A stretch of 57,772 bases of DNA from Lachnospiraceae bacterium (GTDB lineage: Bacteria; Bacillota; Clostridia; Lachnospirales; Lachnospiraceae): assembly GCA_017622875.1 (NCBI GenBank), contig JAGAQG010000068.1, forward strand, positions 1 through 57,772. Direction: 5' to 3'. Under the pieces are notes generated by a model. That model ran no database searches and had not been told where the DNA came from. It worked only from the letters and a program-made list of their open reading frames with translations. Made by a program: the position numbers and the translations under genes. This document shows positions 60-55,448 of the stretch, one piece after another; the first letter of the stretch is position 1, and every line of letters starts with the position of its first letter.

Positions 60-128
60 TTGCAACTTTGTCCAAAATGGACTTGCAACTTTGTCCATTT
101 TTGTTTTGCAACTTTGGGTAATTTTATT
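60..128. repeat. Three tandem 23-bp units, possible insertion-sequence end
   Basis: The 11-mer TTGCAACTTTG starts at 60, 83 and 106, an exact 23-bp period. The first two copies continue as TCC and the third diverges. Closely spaced terminal repeats of this kind are typical of IS21-family ends, so this may be the remnant of an element lying to the left of the window. No transposase reading frame can be recognised in the first 60 bases. The third unit overlaps the stop codon of the neighbouring ORF6N gene. Which side belongs to the element cannot be decided from this window. Confidence 0.5.
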
Positions 129-1074
129 TTACAATAAACAGATAGATCTCTGTCTTTTCGATTTTTATAATTGAACAGATTTTTGTCCCCGCATCCTTAC
201 TGGATGTTCCGCACTGATATACCTGTTCATTTTCCGTACCATAATCAATGAAAATACATCGGTCATGCCATTCCTTATTCGGTTTTAAGCAAAGTGTTGG
301 ATACTCTTCATTAAAATCATTAACAAGGGAAGCTGTTAATCTTTGTTGAACATTGCATGCATTTCTCGTAAAAAGTGTGACAGCAACATTTTCTTGTTTT
401 TGAGATAACAATTGGAGCGTTTTATCACTTATATAATCATCAACAATCATAATGTTTTTTTGAGCTTTTTTATAAATGTCGGTATAAAGTATATCTGCCT
501 CAAATTTTTGTCCTTTGAAAATAATAAATTCTTTCAAATCTTCTTTGTTAATGAAGTTTTCGTTCAACTTATTTATATCCTTTTTTATATCCAAAATTTG
601 TTTATCCACACGCTCTTCAAATGAAGATACATGTCCTTTTAAATAGGACAAATGCTCTGATATAGCATTCAGTTCTGTTCTAGTAGCCAACTGTGGATTT
701 TTCTGGATATAATGTCTCATTTCCTTAAATGCACGCATAATTGCAATACTTTGCTGCACAGCCAAATCTTTTTTTAGGACAGTTGTAAGCATATATACAC
801 CTTGTTCTGTGAAAACATATGGAAGCTTTCTTTTACCACCCCAACTTGAAGTCACAATTTGTGACTTCAAAATATCCCATTCTTCTTGTGTAAGCTGAAA
901 CATAAAATCTTCTGGAAAACGTTCTATATTACGATTAACTTGTTGATTTAAGGTTCTTACAGTATATCCATAGATTTCTGCCAAATCACTGTCCAACATT
1001 ACTTGTTGTCCACGAACTGTATATACTAAATTTTGAATATTATCGGCAGTTACTAAAATCTGTTTTTCCTCCAT
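124..1074 (-). CDS. ORF6N domain protein (phage antirepressor-like DNA-binding protein)
   Basis: This encodes 316 residues. The N-terminal 130 residues carry the ORF6N pattern: a strand reading VYTVRGQQVMLDSDLAEIYG, then RTLNQQVNRNIERFPEDFMF, then YVFTEQGVYML. This family is found in phage antirepressors and mobile elements and is thought to bind DNA. Residues of about 135-190 look like a charged helix or coiled coil, followed by a C-terminal region of unknown fold. The start at 1074 is chosen because AAGGAAGGATAT lies just upstream; the reading frame stays open 40 codons further but has no ribosome site there. A LexA-type box lies about 230 bp upstream. Its target is unknown. Confidence 0.8.
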   Translation of the reverse strand: MEEKQILVTADNIQNLVYTVRGQQVMLDSDLAEIYGYTVRTLNQQVNRNIERFPEDFMFQLTQEEWDILKSQIVTSSWGGKRKLPYVFTEQGVYMLTTVLKKDLAVQQSIAIMRAFKEMRHYIQKNPQLATRTELNAISEHLSYLKGHVSSFEERVDKQILDIKKDINKLNENFINKEDLKEFIIFKGQKFEADILYTDIYKKAQKNIMIVDDYISDKTLQLLSQKQENVAVTLFTRNACNVQQRLTASLVNDFNEEYPTLCLKPNKEWHDRCIFIDYGTENEQVYQCGTSSKDAGTKICSIIKIEKTEIYLFIVK

Positions 1075-1219
1075 TTGTATATCCTTCCTTTTATCAATTA
1101 AAATCGCATTATAGTTTTCCATATTTGTAAGAACCAACAACTGATTAATACCTATTGCGTCAAATTCCTTTTTCCATCTGGCAGGGGGCACCATAAATTT
1201 GTTATAGGATACCTCATTG

Positions 1220-30257: not shown

Positions 30258-33200
30258 TTATTTACTAATATTTTTTCTTCTTTTTGCAGCCACAACCAAA
30301 ACTCCTGCTGCTGCAACCACCATTGCAACACAGAACTCTGCTACATTTGCAGAATCTCCTGTCTTCGCACCTGTTGTACCTCCTGCTGCAGTTGTTTTTT
30401 CTCCTGCATAATGTACTTCTACAGGTTTCTTAGTATCTTCTGCAGAATTATCTTTATTTTTGTCTGAAGAACTGCTTCCCTGGTTACCCTGATTTGCAGA
30501 ACTTTCCAGTTCTTTCAGTTTTGCTTCTGCTGTTTCAAGAACATTTAAGTTCGTAACCAGTGCTTTTGCTTCTGCTGATAATGCCTCATATGCTGTGCGT
30601 GCTTCTTCGATAGCTGTTTTGCTTTCTAAAGTCACTTCGCCGATTGCATCGATTTTATCACTTACTGCCTTTGCTTCTTCTGCATACACGGCATCAGCTA
30701 CATCTTTTGAAACAACTTTTGCATTCACAGATGCACCTGCTGCAACACTTGTTGTTACATAGCTGACAATTTCTCCATTGATTTCTTTGTTTTCAGCCGC
30801 AAAAATTTTATCTCCAACCTGAATGTAATCATGATCACCGTAGAATCTTACTTCCCATGTGATTGCTTTCTCTGCATTATGGTTCGTCAAAGTAGAATCC
30901 GTGTTGCTGTTATGTGCCAAATCCAGTTCGTAATCGCCAATCTGCATGTATTTTGCCTTTACGTCCGGCACTTCCTGTGGAAGTCTTGGACTTGTAGCCA
31001 CAAAGCCTGCACCCGCATCTGGTTCAACGCCCATCATTCCCTCAATGGTTTGTGAAATATATGTAAAAGAAATTTCCGGATAGTCACCATTGGTTCCCTG
31101 ACTTGGTCTTTCATGAGGATTATCTTTAATGGAGGTAATGTATTTCATCCATTTCCATGCATCATCGCTTCTGTTATAGAGGAATAACATATCCGGGATA
31201 TAGGTATAGGCTTCAATGTTTTTAGGTGCTGTGCTTGTTGTACCAATACCATTTCCGAGATTATCAAGAATGAAATCAATATAGTTATCATTTCTTTCTC
31301 CCGGTTCAGTGATCATTTTCAGTGGAATAAACCATGAAGTTTCTTTTGAGAAATCTGAATATCGTTGCCCATTTGGTCCCCATGCGCAGACATATTCACT
31401 TTGTGCGTCATCTGCCACGCTCCATGTATCATTAAAGTATTCTTTCAGGTCTGCTGCTTTCTGGTACCATTCTTCTGCTTCTTCATTTTCTCCACGTGCT
31501 TTTAACATACCGGCGTATGCCAACGTCGCCTGATACTGTGAGCCAATAGAATCTCCTGCTTCGATGACTTGTCTTCCGCCTCGTTCATTGTAGGTCGCGG
31601 AACCATTAAAAATACCAGTTCCAACTTCCTGTGCAACACCGTTTCCGTTTCCATCATGGGTTTCAATATACTTTGTCATGACATTTGTATAGAAATTCCA
31701 TAATGTTTCATCGGTGATGTATCTTTCATCACCGGACCACAAATACTGCTTATACGCTTTTTCTACTAATTCGAACTGCGCAGGAACCTCACGCACAAAT
31801 GAATTTTCATTATTATAATCTAAGCTGTATACAGAGCCGTCAAAATTCAAAGCCCATACCGTGTACCATTTTCTCGCTTCTGTGCATTCCTTTGCAAAAG
31901 CAGAGAACATGGAATAGTTTTCATCTGCCAGTCCTGCAATCTGTGCTCCGGTTGCCTGATGCACAAAATCTCTGGAATAAAATGCAGTTCTGTCAAAATA
32001 TCCTGCCCAATAAGACGGAATATAATCCTCTCCAATGCTGCCTGCGCCACTTTCAGATTTGTTAATGATACCATTCTTGGTTCCTGTTACTACAAACTGA
32101 TCGATCTTATTTGCCGCCCAGTTAAAGGTATCCGCAAGATTGCTATTAGAAGACTCTAAAACAACCTTCTTTTCTTTTTCATTTGCAATAATCGTCCATT
32201 CAGTTTGCTCCTGCGCACTGTCAGTCAATGTGAATTTCAGATCATTCTCAAGATTTAACACATCATCGGTTTTTATTGAGGCACTTGCTCCTGCTGAAAC
32301 AAGCAGTTCTTTCAAAGTAATTTGGGAAAAATCTGTTCCATAAGCATACTCTAAAGTAATTTCCTTTTTTGTATTGTCAATGATTGTATCATATGCTGCT
32401 GGCTCTGTAACAAATTTCTTTACATTTGCAAATGCTGGAATTCCTTCTTCTCTGTCACGCTTCAGCGAAAAAGTATCTACATCATAAGCGTTGTCTGAAG
32501 CTCCTTCTAAAACCAGTTTTATGTTCTGCCCCTCTTCCAGCGGAATATTGTCAATTTTCACCTCAGACCATTCGCCATCTGTTGGCTGAACATTTACACT
32601 TCCAAGAACATTTCCTGCCTCATCCTGCAGAGAAATCTTACCCGTTCCGCTTCCGGAATAACGAACATACGCAACCAAATCATAATATGCCGTTCTAGGC
32701 ACTGTGATTGCCTGTGTTGCTGTACTGCTTGTTTTTACAATTCCTCGTACAAGACCATCTTTGGCATCATTATTGGAAATTGAAATACCAGACCAACCTG
32801 TAGTATCACTTTCGAAACCTGGGTTCTGAATGATATTAATATCCACCGGTCCTACCGCTTCACTCCGTGCGGCATCTCCTGCTTTTTCATACTGGTCTAC
32901 AGGAGTTACCTGAAATTTCAGATATTTATCTTCCCATTCAGCTTTTACTGTAAGATTTGAAGCTGTCGCTCCTTCGATCGCTGTATACTCTCCATTTGCA
33001 CTGTCTGCGATAAACCACTGATATACAGAATTTCCCTCTGTATGATCGTCACTGTCTGTAAAATCATAGCTCGCACTCACAATAAGTTCTGCCGTACATT
33101 CTCCGCTAATCACAACATTGGATGCTGTCGGTGCAGCATTTTCAATCTTTGACAAGTCAAATTTTACGACTGCATTTTTCACAGAAGAAGCACCTTCAAT

Positions 33201-34406
33201 TTTCAGTTCTACCTTCTGTCCTGCTATTAAATCTTCTTTCTCTACTTTTATGGTAGTGGAACCACTTGTACCTGTTACCTCCTCGCCTGCAAAAGAAACT
33301 TTCACACCTTCTGCATTCTCCAAAGTAACCTCTGCATAATAGGAGCCATCCTGTGGAATATAAATGCTCTGGCTGAAAGTTCCATCCTCATTCTTCCATG
33401 CACTTGCACTCACATCATCTGGAGATACCACCATATTTACAAATCGGCTTAAATTATATTCTAAAGAGATATCATCACCATTGACCCAATTACTGCCGCC
33501 TGTTACATAGACTTCAATCTTATCACCTTTATTCGCCCAGATTTCCAATGTGTACTCTGAATAAGAGGAATTGGAAGTAAGCGTCACTTCATCCAATTCA
33601 CCCGAAGTGACATTCTTAACACCGAATTTTGCGTTTTCTCCGCCAGTTGCTACCCAGAGACCTGCTTTATAATATCCTGTATATGGAACATATATCTGCT
33701 GTGAAACCTTATAGCTTGTACTGGCATTAAGGTAAAAATGTCTGTCTCCTCTGCCGTTGTGTCCATTGTTATTTCCATAGCCGCCACCAGAAAAACTCCA
33801 TGCGCTATCCTCAGTAAAGCTTGGATTTAAAAGCATATTTCCAGTAAAAATATAATCTGGTTCCTGTTCGCTTGGATCATCTGCTTCTCCTGTCTGCTCT
33901 GTACATGAGAAGTCGAACTGATCACCATTCACCCACGACGCATTTGCTCCGCTTACATATACTTCTACTTTATCACCTTTGCTTAACTGAATATCACTTA
34001 AGATATACTCTGTATAGCTACTAGCTGTAATTTCAACGTCTTTTAACGCCTCTGTTTCTCCTTCTTTACGAACTCCAAACATTCCTCCGGAGCCTCCTGT
34101 TACAAGCCATGCAGATGCTTTATAGATTCCATCTGCCGGAATTGTAATTGTCTGCTTCAGTTCATTGTTCTCTCCAGCATTCAAATAAAAGTGCTGTGTT
34201 CCACTTGGATACCCATTATTTGTTCCACAGCCACCACCGACAAAGCTCCACTCGCTGGTTCCATCATCAAATGCAGCATTTTTCATCAAATTAACATTTT
34301 CAATGTTAATCGATTCTGCATGTACTACATGCATCCCCCCAAAGCATCCGGCAAAAATTGCTGCGCTCAAAAAAGCCGCAAGCCATCTTTTCAGACCTCT
34401 TCTCAT
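30258..34406 (-). CDS. Large modular surface protein with a glycosidase-like domain
   Basis: This 1382-residue protein has a signal peptide (about 1-31). Two tandem carbohydrate-binding-like modules at about 35-175 and 190-320 share NNG, HFYLNA, KGDK and WVNGD blocks. A shorter beta module follows, then an Ig-like module (about 440-545) and another binding module (about 545-675). A helical domain at about 775-1190 resembles six-hairpin glycosidases (YFDRTAFYSRDFVHQATGA; ETSWFIPLKM). A FIVAR-like three-helix region precedes the C-terminal tail. The tail has AKTGDS, a hydrophobic span and RRKN, like a sortase anchor without the canonical LPXTG. The enzymatic family is not certain. It is last in the glycan operon. 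Confidence 0.8.
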   Translation of the reverse strand: MRRGLKRWLAAFLSAAIFAGCFGGMHVVHAESINIENVNLMKNAAFDDGTSEWSFVGGGCGTNNGYPSGTQHFYLNAGENNELKQTITIPADGIYKASAWLVTGGSGGMFGVRKEGETEALKDVEITASSYTEYILSDIQLSKGDKVEVYVSGANASWVNGDQFDFSCTEQTGEADDPSEQEPDYIFTGNMLLNPSFTEDSAWSFSGGGYGNNNGHNGRGDRHFYLNASTSYKVSQQIYVPYTGYYKAGLWVATGGENAKFGVKNVTSGELDEVTLTSNSSYSEYTLEIWANKGDKIEVYVTGGSNWVNGDDISLEYNLSRFVNMVVSPDDVSASAWKNEDGTFSQSIYIPQDGSYYAEVTLENAEGVKVSFAGEEVTGTSGSTTIKVEKEDLIAGQKVELKIEGASSVKNAVVKFDLSKIENAAPTASNVVISGECTAELIVSASYDFTDSDDHTEGNSVYQWFIADSANGEYTAIEGATASNLTVKAEWEDKYLKFQVTPVDQYEKAGDAARSEAVGPVDINIIQNPGFESDTTGWSGISISNNDAKDGLVRGIVKTSSTATQAITVPRTAYYDLVAYVRYSGSGTGKISLQDEAGNVLGSVNVQPTDGEWSEVKIDNIPLEEGQNIKLVLEGASDNAYDVDTFSLKRDREEGIPAFANVKKFVTEPAAYDTIIDNTKKEITLEYAYGTDFSQITLKELLVSAGASASIKTDDVLNLENDLKFTLTDSAQEQTEWTIIANEKEKKVVLESSNSNLADTFNWAANKIDQFVVTGTKNGIINKSESGAGSIGEDYIPSYWAGYFDRTAFYSRDFVHQATGAQIAGLADENYSMFSAFAKECTEARKWYTVWALNFDGSVYSLDYNNENSFVREVPAQFELVEKAYKQYLWSGDERYITDETLWNFYTNVMTKYIETHDGNGNGVAQEVGTGIFNGSATYNERGGRQVIEAGDSIGSQYQATLAYAGMLKARGENEEAEEWYQKAADLKEYFNDTWSVADDAQSEYVCAWGPNGQRYSDFSKETSWFIPLKMITEPGERNDNYIDFILDNLGNGIGTTSTAPKNIEAYTYIPDMLFLYNRSDDAWKWMKYITSIKDNPHERPSQGTNGDYPEISFTYISQTIEGMMGVEPDAGAGFVATSPRLPQEVPDVKAKYMQIGDYELDLAHNSNTDSTLTNHNAEKAITWEVRFYGDHDYIQVGDKIFAAENKEINGEIVSYVTTSVAAGASVNAKVVSKDVADAVYAEEAKAVSDKIDAIGEVTLESKTAIEEARTAYEALSAEAKALVTNLNVLETAEAKLKELESSANQGNQGSSSSDKNKDNSAEDTKKPVEVHYAGEKTTAAGGTTGAKTGDSANVAEFCVAMVVAAAGVLVVAAKRRKNISK

Positions 34407-45511: not shown

Positions 45512-46867
45512 CTATTTATCAGCTGTTGCTGCTTTGATCATAATCGCACATTCCACACGTTTTCTCTGCAGGTCGCATCCGATATCGTATGCATCCATGA
45601 TAGAACCGTGGAAGTTGTAAGAGTTTGCTGCACATCCACCGCTGCAGTAGAATTTTGCGAAGCAGTTCTTGCATTTTTCTTTTGCATATACATTACATGC
45701 CTTGAACTGTCTGCAGATTTCCGGTTTTACGATACCGTCATCCACATTTCCTAACAGGAAGTCTTCATTACCAACGAACTGGTGGCATGGATATAAATCT
45801 CCCCAAGGAGTCACTGCCAGGTATTCTGTTCCTGAACCGCAGCCTGAGAGTCTTTTTGCCACACATGGACCGCCTGTTAAGTCGATCATGAAATGGAAGA
45901 AATTAAAGTCTTTGTCTGTTTTATATCTTTCAACCATTTCTTTTGCAAGGTTGTCATATTCTTCAAAAATCTTTGGAAGATTTTCTTCACGGATTGCATA
46001 GTCTTCTTCCGGCTGTGCTACTACCGGTTCCACAGAAATCTGTTTGAAGCCTAAGTCTGCCATATGAAGAACGTCCTGTGAGAAATCCAGATTATTTCTT
46101 GTAAATGTACCGCGTACATAGTAATCTGTCTGATTTCTGCTTTCCGCAAGTTTCTGGAACTTCGGAACAATCAGATCATAACTTCCCTGACCTTTTCTGA
46201 ATGGTCTCATGTAATCATGAACTTCCTTACGTCCGTCGATACTAAGAACCACGTTGCTCATCTCTTTATTGGCAAATTCCATCACTTCGTCATTAAGAAG
46301 AACACCGTTTGTAGTCAATGTGAAGCGGAATTTTTTATTATGAAGCTCTTCCTGACTTCTTCCGTAAGCTACCAGATCCTTTACGACCTGCCAGTTCATC
46401 AGAGGTTCTCCGCCAAAGAAGTCAACTTCCAGATTTCTTCTTTTGCCAGAGTTTGCGATGAGGAAATCCAGTGCCTTTTTACCCACTTCATAGCTCATCA
46501 TCGCACGTCTTCCGTGGTATTCACCCTCTTCTGCAAAACAATATTTGCATGCAAGGTTACAGTCATGTGCAATATGTAAACAGAGTGCTTTTACAACAGT
46601 TGGTCTGTCTGCAAAACCATCAATGTATTTTTCGTAAACGTCTTCTGTAAATAATCTTCCGGCTTCCTTCAGTTCTGTGATCTCGTCCCATGCTTCTGCA
46701 ATATCTTCTGCTTTGTACTGACCGGAAAGCTTTTCTATGATTTCTTCTTCTGTATATTCTTCATACATTGCAATGATGTCATAACTCATGTCATCTACTA
46801 CATGAATAGAGCCGGAGTTTACATCCATGACAATGTTATATCCATTATTTTTGTACTGATGAATCAT
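45512..46867 (-). CDS. scfB: SCIFF radical SAM maturase (thioether bond forming)
   Basis: This 451-residue enzyme installs thioether crosslinks in the SCIFF peptide. An N-terminal peptide-recognition-like region (1-85) precedes the radical SAM cluster motif CNLACKYC at 103-110. A SPASM domain follows with many Cys for auxiliary [4Fe-4S] clusters (GCGSGTEYLAVTPWGDLYPC; CKNCFAKFYCSGGC; final Cys pair near 433 and 441). The precursor gene scfA is directly upstream, separated by a perfect hairpin. Family assignment follows from the SPASM layout and the adjacent precursor. Confidence 0.95.
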   Translation of the reverse strand: MIHQYKNNGYNIVMDVNSGSIHVVDDMSYDIIAMYEEYTEEEIIEKLSGQYKAEDIAEAWDEITELKEAGRLFTEDVYEKYIDGFADRPTVVKALCLHIAHDCNLACKYCFAEEGEYHGRRAMMSYEVGKKALDFLIANSGKRRNLEVDFFGGEPLMNWQVVKDLVAYGRSQEELHNKKFRFTLTTNGVLLNDEVMEFANKEMSNVVLSIDGRKEVHDYMRPFRKGQGSYDLIVPKFQKLAESRNQTDYYVRGTFTRNNLDFSQDVLHMADLGFKQISVEPVVAQPEEDYAIREENLPKIFEEYDNLAKEMVERYKTDKDFNFFHFMIDLTGGPCVAKRLSGCGSGTEYLAVTPWGDLYPCHQFVGNEDFLLGNVDDGIVKPEICRQFKACNVYAKEKCKNCFAKFYCSGGCAANSYNFHGSIMDAYDIGCDLQRKRVECAIMIKAATADK

Positions 46868-46960: not shown

Positions 46961-47104
46961 TTATTTGTGGTTTTCGCAAGTCTGATTTCCTACTGTGCAG
47001 GAAGTCTTACATGCTGACTGGCAAGATGTCTGGCATTCTCCGCATCCGCCTTTTTTCATTGTATTCTGTAATACCTGAGTATTTAATGTCTTTACATGTT
47101 TCAT
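46961..47104 (-). CDS. scfA: SCIFF precursor peptide (six cysteines, ranthipeptide)
   Basis: This is a 47-residue ribosomally made peptide. The leader part MKHVKTLNTQVLQNTMKKGG is followed by a core with Cys at 21, 24, 28, 32, 36 and 43, the six-cysteine hallmark. The sequence ends ENHK. Alternating Cys and Thr/Ser residues provide the thioether partners known for this family. AGGAGGATATCAGC precedes the ATG and a good promoter lies about 40 bp upstream. The maturase scfB follows. SCIFF peptides are almost universal in Clostridia and their function is still unknown. Confidence 0.97.
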   Translation of the reverse strand: MKHVKTLNTQVLQNTMKKGGCGECQTSCQSACKTSCTVGNQTCENHK

Positions 47105-52253: not shown

Positions 52254-52427
52254 TTATACAAACTTATTCAATTCCTCGTCATATTCATAGTCAATACTTG
52301 CAAGCTTCTCTTCGATTTCATCTTTCGCAACATGAAAATCCTCGCAAAATGCATCCAGGCTTGGGAACTCATCCCGAAGCTTCGTATTTACAAAGCTTAA
52401 CAGTATCATTGGCTGGTTTGGCAGCAT
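52254..52427 (-). CDS. DUF4250 family protein
   Basis: This 57-residue peptide reads MLPNQPMILLSFVNTKLRD, then EFPSLDAFCEDFHVAKDEIEEKLASIDYEYD. The pattern from PNQPMILLSFVNTKLRDEF to YDEELN matches DUF4250, found widely in Lachnospiraceae and of unknown function. AAGAGGATGAACT precedes the ATG. It lies 14 bases downstream of clpB on the same strand. Confidence 0.88.
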   Translation of the reverse strand: MLPNQPMILLSFVNTKLRDEFPSLDAFCEDFHVAKDEIEEKLASIDYEYDEELNKFV

Positions 52428-52441
52428 AGTTCATCCTCTTT

Positions 52442-55024
52442 CTACTGGACTTTCGCGGTCAAACTGTCACCTTCCACTGTAATGACGATGGTATCACCAG
52501 TAGACACATCTCCCTGTAAGATAATCTTCGCAGCGAGAGTCTCTACATATTTCTGTACATATCGTTTCAATGGTCTGGCTCCGTAAACCGGGTCATATCC
52601 ATGGTCTGTTATATAATCTTTCGCTTCTTCCGTGATTTCCAGATGAAGCTCTCTGTCTGACAGACGTTCATTCAAATCTTTAAGCAACAGATTGATAATG
52701 CTACGAATATCAGATTTTGTCAATGGTTTGAACAAAATTGTTTCGTCCAGACGGTTTAAGAATTCCGGTCTGAAATGAGCACGTAAGTCTGCCATGACTG
52801 CATTTTCCGCCTCAGGAGTAATCTCTCCGTTTGCATCAATTCCTTCCAGAAGATAGGAAGAACCGATGTTGGATGTCATGATTAGAATCGTATTCTTAAA
52901 GTCAACGGTACGTCCCTGAGAGTCTGTGATTCGTCCATCATCCAGTACCTGTAACAATACATTAAATACATCCGGATGTGCTTTTTCAATTTCATCAAAC
53001 AGTACCACGGAATATGGTTTTCTGCGGACTGCTTCTGTCAGCTGACCGCCTTCTTCATATCCTACGTATCCTGGAGGCGCTCCGATCAGACGGGATACGG
53101 AATGTTTCTCCATATACTCACTCATATCGATACGCACCATGTTGCTCTCATCATCGAAAAGACTTGCGGCAAGTGCTTTGGCAAGCTCTGTTTTACCTAC
53201 ACCTGTCGGTCCTAAGAATAGGAAGGAACCGATTGGTTTTTCAGGGTCTTTGATGCCCGCCTTGGAACGGATAATGGCTTCTGTTACTTTGATAACGCCC
53301 TCCTCCTGTCCGATGACACGTTTGTGAAGCTCTTCGTCCAGATGAAGTGTTTTATTTCTTTCGCTCTCTGTCAGCTTCGCTACAGGAATTCCTGTCCAAC
53401 GGGAAATAATCTTTGCGATTTCTTCATCTGTCACACTTTCATGAACCAGTGTCATTTCCTGATTTTTAATCTTTTCTTCTTCGATTTCCAGCTGTTTCTG
53501 TAACTGCGGCAGTCTGCCATACTGTAATTCCGCAGCCTTTTCCAGATCATAGTTTCTCTGAGCCAGCGCAATTTCCTTATTCATGGCTTCGATATCTTCA
53601 CGGAGTTTGGAAAGTTTTTCTACGCCGGATTTTTCATTGTCCCACTGAACTTTCTTCACATTGAACTCATCGCGAAGCTCTGCCAGCTCTTTCTGGAGCG
53701 CGTCCAGACGCTCTTTGCTCAAATTGTCGGTTTCTTTTTTCAGTGCAGCTTCTTCAATCTCCAGCTGCATGACTTTACGCTGTAATTCATCCAGTTCTGC
53801 CGGCATGGAATCCAATTCTGTCTTAATCAGTGCACAAGCTTCATCCACAAGGTCGATTGCCTTATCCGGTAAAAATCTGTCAGAAATATATCTATGAGAC
53901 AAAGTCGCTGCTGTAACCAGCGCACCATCTGTAATTTTTACCCCATGGAATACTTCATAACGTTCCTTCAGTCCACGAAGAATGGAAATGGTATCTTCTA
54001 CCGTCGGTTCATCTACCATGACCGGCTGGAATCTTCGTTCCAGAGCAGCATCTTTTTAAATATATTGACGATATTCATACAATGTTGTAGAACAGATACA
54101 ATGCAGTTCGCCTCTGGCAAGCATTGGCTTTAACATATTGCTGGCATCCATGGCACCATCACTCTTTCCGGCACCGACGATCAGATGCAGCTCATCAATG
54201 AACAGAATAATCTGTCCGTCGCTTTTTCTGACTTCTTCCAGAACTGCTTTTAAACGTTCTTCAAATTCACCACGATATTTTGCACCTGCTACCAGAGCGC
54301 CCATATCTAATGCAAAAAGCTTCTTATCTTTCAGTCCTTCCGGCACATCCCCACGTACAATACGCTGTGCAAGACCTTCTACGACCGCTGTTTTACCAAC
54401 ACCCGGCTCACCGATCAGAACCGGATTATTCTTTGTCTTTCTTGATAAAATGCGGACCACATTTCGGATTTCACTGTCACGCCCGATGACTGGGTCCAGC
54501 TTCTGTTCTCTGGCACGTTCTACAAGATCGTAACCATATTTATTTAAGGTATCGTAAGTCACTTCCGGATTATCACTGACAACTCTCTGGTTTCCGCGCA
54601 CTGTGGAAAGTGCCTGCAGGAAACGTTCTCTGGTAATGCCATATTCCTTGAAGAACTGCTTCATGGATGGACTGGTCTCTTTTAGCATGCTTAAGAACAA
54701 ATGCTCTACGGAAACATATTCGTCTCCCATGGCTTTTGCTTCGTCTTCTGCATTGATCAGCGCTTTGTTCAGATACTGTCCTACATATGGCTGTCCGCCG
54801 GATACTTTGGTACGCTTCCCGATATAATCATCTAATCTGTTCAGGAAGTGCTCTTTGTTTATTTCCATCTTTTCGATCAGCTTTAAGATCAGGCTGTCTT
54901 CCTGGTGTAATAAACTATAGAGTAAATGTTCCTGTTCGATTTCCTGATTACCGAAATCATATGCAACCTTTTCCAAGTTATTGATTGCCTGGATTGATTT
55001 CTGTGTAAATTTACTGATGTTCAT
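52442..55024 (-). pseudogene. clpB: ClpB disaggregase interrupted by one in-frame stop codon
   Basis: The two parts form one frame of 861 codons, the normal length for ClpB. The N domain is at 1-145. The first AAA+ domain has GEPGVGKT at 205-212. A coiled-coil middle domain follows, then a second AAA+ domain with GPTGVGKT, and the C-terminal domain. Codon 323 (54056-54058) is TAA where family members have Glu in [12 protein letters not shown]. The frame continues intact after it. The preceding motif is also altered: [12 protein letters not shown] against the usual GATTLDEYRKYI. A CIRCE site lies upstream. The product would be truncated in the first ATPase domain unless the base calls are wrong. 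Confidence 0.9.
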
Positions 55025-55086: not shown

Positions 55087-55113
55087 TTAGCACTCGTCAA
55101 GGTCGAGTGCTAA
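55087..55113 (-). promoter_or_regulatory. CIRCE operator (HrcA) upstream of clpB
   Basis: TTAGCACTC-N9-GAGTGCTAA is a perfect match to the CIRCE consensus. It lies 62 bp upstream of the clpB start, so heat-shock control by HrcA is expected. Confidence 0.95.
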
Positions 55114-55301: not shown

Positions 55302-55448
55302 ATGATGAATTTATTAATGTACCCAATCGTAGTGCTGTTCGCTCTTTTAGGCGGTGGCTCTTCAATTGCAATTATGGTTTACCTCATTGTGGTACTTGCA
55401 CAGAAAATTAAAAATAAAATCAAGTACGGAGCATCTCTGTACGATTAA
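55302..55448 (+). CDS. 48-residue single-pass membrane peptide
   Basis: This is a small protein with one long hydrophobic segment covering about residues 7-33, broken by GGGSS, and a basic tail (QKIKNKIKYG) ending in SLYD. GGGAGGAG lies eight bases before the ATG. It has its own good promoter, upstream direct repeats and terminator, so it is very likely expressed. I do not recognise the family. Possible roles are a small stress or envelope regulator, or a toxin-like peptide; neither can be shown from the sequence. Confidence 0.85.
   Translation: MMNLLMYPIVVLFALLGGGSSIAIMVYLIVVLAQKIKNKIKYGASLYD

Follow-up and report, generated by a model that had tools for sequence, protein, structure and literature searches.

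Has this Lachnospiraceae bacterium lost a conserved chaperone, or does its draft genome merely read as if it had? The question is raised by the clpB gene in the window, a term used here for the whole stretch of DNA that was analysed, 57,772 nucleotides long. An initial annotation had described the clpB frame as open except for a TAA at codon 323, and its coordinates and codons are as described: the frame runs for 861 codons including the final stop, and that TAA is its only internal stop. The answer argued here, with a probability of about 0.6, is that an artefact of reads or assembly fits best. As a matter of biology, the broken clpB is most probably no real feature. The parts of the locus are as follows.

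52442..55024, minus strand: clpB reading frame with one internal stop; both of its pieces match TIGR03346
54056..55024, minus strand: N-terminal piece, 322 aa, with Clp_N and most of the first AAA domain by domain match, stopping before ERRF
52442..54019, minus strand: C-terminal piece, 525 aa, starting at the first ATG past the stop, with domain matches to AAA_lid_9, AAA_2 and ClpB_D2-small
54092..54094, minus strand: codon 311, TGT (Cys), private; Gly in 106 of 106 relatives
54089..54091, minus strand: codon 312, TCT (Ser), private; Ala in 106 of 106 relatives
54077..54079, minus strand: codon 316, TAT (Tyr), private; Asp in 87 of 106 relatives
54056..54058, minus strand: codon 323, in-frame TAA; Glu in 106 of 106 relatives
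55087..55113, no strand assigned: CIRCE palindrome (operator of HrcA) upstream of clpB, agreeing perfectly with the consensus (0 mismatches)

That the gene is a clpB is clear from its parts. The domain set of ClpB is all there, comprising Clp_N, two AAA+ modules with Walker A and Walker B, an AAA lid and D2-small. These matches (Clp_N, AAA, AAA_lid_9, AAA_2 and ClpB_D2-small) came from scanning the two pieces apart, and no separate model for the coiled-coil middle domain was among the matches obtained. In ClpB numbering, Walker A (GEPGVGKT) stands at residue 205, Walker B (FIDELH) at 275 and ERRFQ at 329. Compared with solved structures, the N-terminal piece matches ClpB chains best. As in the ClpB/Hsp100 disaggregases (TIGR03346; PDB 6dju and 4d2q), of which unbroken relatives are widely known, the pieces fit consecutive parts of one model: they cover positions 1-318 and 332-851 of the 853 in NCBIfam TIGR03346 (chaperone_ClpB). 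Unlike those disaggregases, this gene carries a stop and three residues absent from relatives, all in the first ATPase domain. Neither piece scores as a full-length ClpB, the two reaching 452.5 and 834.9 bits against a curated cut-off of 1232.1 bits.

Because of the internal TAA, the gene as written is therefore a broken clpB. The arginine finger of the first domain lies, we presume, in ERRF. Such a finger is needed for catalysis, according to passages of PMC3940203. The first product would stop between Walker B and ERRFQ, and should thus not work as an ATPase ring.

What makes the locus unusual is not the stop alone, of course, but the company that it keeps. ClpB was aligned with 109 loci, 107 of them distinct, spanning Lachnospiraceae, Streptomyces and Deltaproteobacteria, among others; one has no letters at the four sites of interest, so that 106 relatives are counted there. 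Exactly four of the 860 ClpB positions (311, 312, 316 and 323) hold something unseen in the 107 distinct relatives, and all four lie within 13 codons, or 37 bases. Four codons drawn at random from 860 span 13 or fewer with a probability of about 7.5e-6 (2 million draws).

A second yardstick treats every row of the alignment alike, counting private residues at columns conserved to at least 80% in all 108 rows, the window included. Here, the window ranks first for cluster density, with a maximum of four private residues per 13 codons; two rows reach three, 18 reach two, 51 reach one and 36 have none. The two rows that reach three are the distant L061 and L068 (60% and 58% identity), and these carry 12 and 25 private residues in total, compared with four in the window.

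The four changes also agree in kind. On the coding strand, T at the first codon base, where relatives have G, fits all four sites, as the initial annotation had proposed. At codons 311, 312 and 323 all 108 loci (duplicates kept) have a codon that starts with G, making a G-to-T change near certain at these three as judged from the alignment. At codon 316 it is likely: G stands there in 90 of 108 loci, with A in 16, C in one and T in one, which bears out the warning that relatives vary at this third site. That all four fall on the first codon position is itself uninformative, since changes at third positions would be invisible without a near relative. In 145 genomes searched, 142 of which gave a match, the best clpB apart from that of the window has 76% DNA identity. 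Among named ClpB proteins, those of Parablautia and Diplocloster come closest, which would place the organism in or near the Lachnospiraceae; no second genome of the window's genus was found among the genomes searched.

Taken together, spacing and type point to one local event. This much survives from the three origins first suggested for the cluster, a mutation burst, loss of clpB in a strain and an artefact. Slow decay of the gene is excluded by the same alignment, no further position of the 860 holding a residue unseen in the 107 relatives; the remainder of clpB is as normal as had been claimed. Nor is it likely that the altered sequence, CSTTLYEY, is ancestral, as had been allowed: the four private states occur in none of the 107 relatives, none of which is known to belong to the same genus.

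The suggestion of phase loss fared no better. Repeats and hairpins at the site are unremarkable, with only short imperfect repeats around it, and a test for template switching or quasipalindrome mutation was negative, the observed sum of 33 being reached by 61 of 400 composition-matched simulated clusters. A match of 8-9 bases within 600 bases does cover each site, and four of four looked slightly high; in the control, 90 of 300 random C-to-A changes in clpB reached at least 8. A donor elsewhere in the genome was also sought with the 96 bases around the site. The ten matches listed are the site itself and nine of 14-22 bases. An exact search of viral contigs with the altered stretch gave no match and is uninformative.

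One might next ask whether the whole genome mutates in this way, or whether the whole assembly is poor. The window is contig 57, bases 1 to 57772, of a 69-contig draft of 2.74 Mb that is 87.7% complete and presumably a metagenome or single-cell assembly; the clpB bases are identical in the genome record (100% over 2583 bases). Ten window genes were compared with relatives, and eight had them, HisS and HD having none among the loci. For the seven besides ClpB (RelA, RecJ, MATE, PepF, Apt, MBL and HemZ), 20-38 rows each were used, once rows below 38% identity and columns covered by less than 20 rows had been dropped. These seven genes hold 14 scattered private residues at columns conserved to at least 80%, and no two of them lie within 13 codons of each other. 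Two of the 14, MATE 206 and RecJ 309, could each be a single G-to-T change, and both are isolated.

A search for other genes cut by a stop covered 367,967 bases, about 13% of the genome, made up of the window and 20 further stretches. It looked for pairs of long frames split by one in-frame stop, with at least 70 open codons on each side, and so detects nonsense changes only, being blind to missense outside the eight aligned genes. It returned 31 pairs, one of which is clpB. In 22, no more than eight codons separate the stop from an ATG, as in neighbouring genes, a judgement made by the start alone; three of these 22 are in the window, and their pieces match different families. The other eight were compared with Pfam. 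Seven have different families for their two halves (one match being weak), and in the eighth a complete C-terminal domain already stands in the first piece and the second matches no family. Thus no other gene cut by an in-frame stop was found in 368 kb, implying that the assembly is not generally poor. Together with the seven genes, the scan lends no support to a genome-wide G-to-T mutator or an error-rich assembly.

How, then, might four bases that most likely do not belong to the chromosome enter an assembly that looks good elsewhere? A series of miscalls, or errors derived from damage, may have arisen in a read or a single template that followed the coding (minus) strand, G being taken for T, and thin coverage would let the faulty template into the draft consensus. 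We infer the sequencing platform, the low local coverage and the origin at the level of reads. Errors of this kind are described in passages of a study of a HiSeq mock-metagenome set (Schirmer et al. 2016, PMC4787001), where substitutions tend to cluster, error rates climb towards read ends, and a sequenced G becomes a false T in most substitutions; another passage names GGG-to-GGT, after Meacham et al., as the commonest error. Those clustered Illumina errors share with the clpB sites one type, one strand as read and a tight spacing.

They also differ from them. The published errors were seen in reads, whereas here they would stand in an assembled consensus, and Illumina use is here a presumption. 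A GG motif often precedes the published errors; on the coding strand, no GG-ending motif named in these passages of PMC4787001 precedes the four sites. Further, a base other than G is the most prone to error in the study, the contig continues 3.7 kb past the site, and the assembly looks good elsewhere, the seven other window genes having no such cluster. Each of these counts against an artefact. Counting for it are the 537 codons after the stop, without any residue unseen in relatives, the perfect CIRCE palindrome, the invariance of three of the sites in the 106 relatives, and the draft state of the genome with its 69 contigs. The change is confined to one stretch with undisturbed flanks, as a single real event would also leave it.

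CIRCE deserves a word of its own. The palindrome matches what we take to be the consensus of this operator without a mismatch, as no match did in 100 shuffles. A CIRCE with no more than three mismatches, up to 300 bases upstream, accompanies clpB in 40 of 109 relatives, and in 30 of the 53 with at least 70% identity. On the plus strand, the palindrome is also scored as a stem resembling a terminator. Divergent from clpB, a gene at 55302-55448 (plus strand) encodes a hydrophobic 48-aa peptide, probably a membrane peptide, which neither Pfam nor NCBIfam matches at E<=0.001. Directly downstream of clpB, at 52254-52427 (minus strand), lies a DUF4250 gene of 57 aa.

The same cluster would arise, of course, if a single event in the cell, such as error-prone synthesis across damaged guanines on one strand, had very recently inactivated clpB in this strain. 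This is possible but doubtful. Such a cell would make the 322-aa fragment, without the arginine-finger segment of its first domain, and perhaps the 525-aa downstream fragment; disaggregase activity would be lost and the cell would stay viable. Null mutants of clpB have been made in Pseudomonas putida, as passages of PMC4263515 report. The tightness of the cluster and its fit to one strand-coordinated type speak for such an event, and parts of the literature supply ingredients: bacterial stress-induced mutagenesis uses DinB and concentrates around double-strand breaks (passages of PMC9488704), and 8-oxoguanine yields G-to-T (passages of PMC11666792). However, the four sites have no common motif, their 5' neighbours being C, T, G and T. 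Collateral mutations of translesion synthesis in vertebrate cells are described as close pairs (in passages of PMC8870599), and redox damage to yeast single-stranded DNA gives mainly C-to-T (in passages of PMC6527239). The template-switch test provides no signal for a real event either. Three of the changes strike columns invariant in 106 relatives from diverse groups, and selection should therefore have preserved them.

The repair genes speak on both sides. No homologue of MutM (Fpg, the 8-oxoguanine glycosylase) was found in the 87.7% complete draft, which would favour a real G-to-T event. MutY is present as an open frame, and weak 8-oxoguanine repair would act genome-wide, not over 37 bases. 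The lack of a MutM match is moreover usual in the family sample, where 36 of 40 genomes, the window's own included, have no match at E<=0.001; any match at all occurs in four of 40, and one above the cut-off in one of 40. It is thus improbable, though worth stating, that the locus records a strand-coordinated, single-event G-to-T cluster shortly after it broke clpB, in a bacterium whose draft yielded no MutM homologue. It would be a bacterial mutation shower with a signature unlike that of the kataegis made by deaminases. As at the clpB sites, strand-coordinated clusters from one event are the mark of mutation showers, of kataegis and of collateral mutations by translesion synthesis. The kataegis described in PMC3628087, however, is ascribed to cytidine deamination, and the changes here read as G-to-T with no motif.

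Two further readings were weighed. Strains can be mixed in a metagenome consensus, and the consensus at this site might have taken up a rare haplotype or, in a chimera, foreign sequence. Against this stand the four private states, found in none of the 107 relatives, and the shortness of the own-genome matches listed above besides the site itself; we consider it quite improbable. It is more improbable still, to the point of being nearly negligible, that the stop is a functional device, programmed, read through or splitting ClpB in two. Such a device would find its pieces in one frame, the second with an ATG 12 codons past the stop. It would also have its stop inside the first ATPase domain, with three invariant or well-conserved residues altered beside it, and would stand alone, the aligned stretches of the 107 relatives having no internal stop. 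The local fold is ordinary (z 0.56 and 0.33, DNA parameters).

The consequences depend on which reading holds. If the cluster is an artefact, it illustrates cleanly how four clustered miscalls in a draft can mimic the disappearance of a conserved chaperone, and it is a reason to inspect private residues at invariant columns whenever a gene is about to be declared lost. If it is real, it would be the trace of a single episode of clustered mutagenesis in a natural bacterium. A literature search found no paper combining clpB, a premature stop codon and a metagenome-assembled genome, and searches on clustered mutation, oxidative G-to-T change and errors in draft metagenome genomes gave general leads only.

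Other genes of the window were noted in passing. A protein of 1382 aa is encoded at 30258-34406 (minus strand); at E<=0.001, Pfam gives it a single weak IG_AIR9 domain and nothing else, and NCBIfam gives no match. Two ORF6N-domain genes occur in the genome, one near the contig edge at 124-1194 (minus strand) and one at L251:12966-14060. At 46961-47104 (minus strand) lies a SCIFF ranthipeptide precursor of 47 aa with six cysteines (TIGR03973, PF13165), adjoined at 45512-46867 (minus strand) by its radical SAM maturase (TIGR03974), an ordinary and intact pair.
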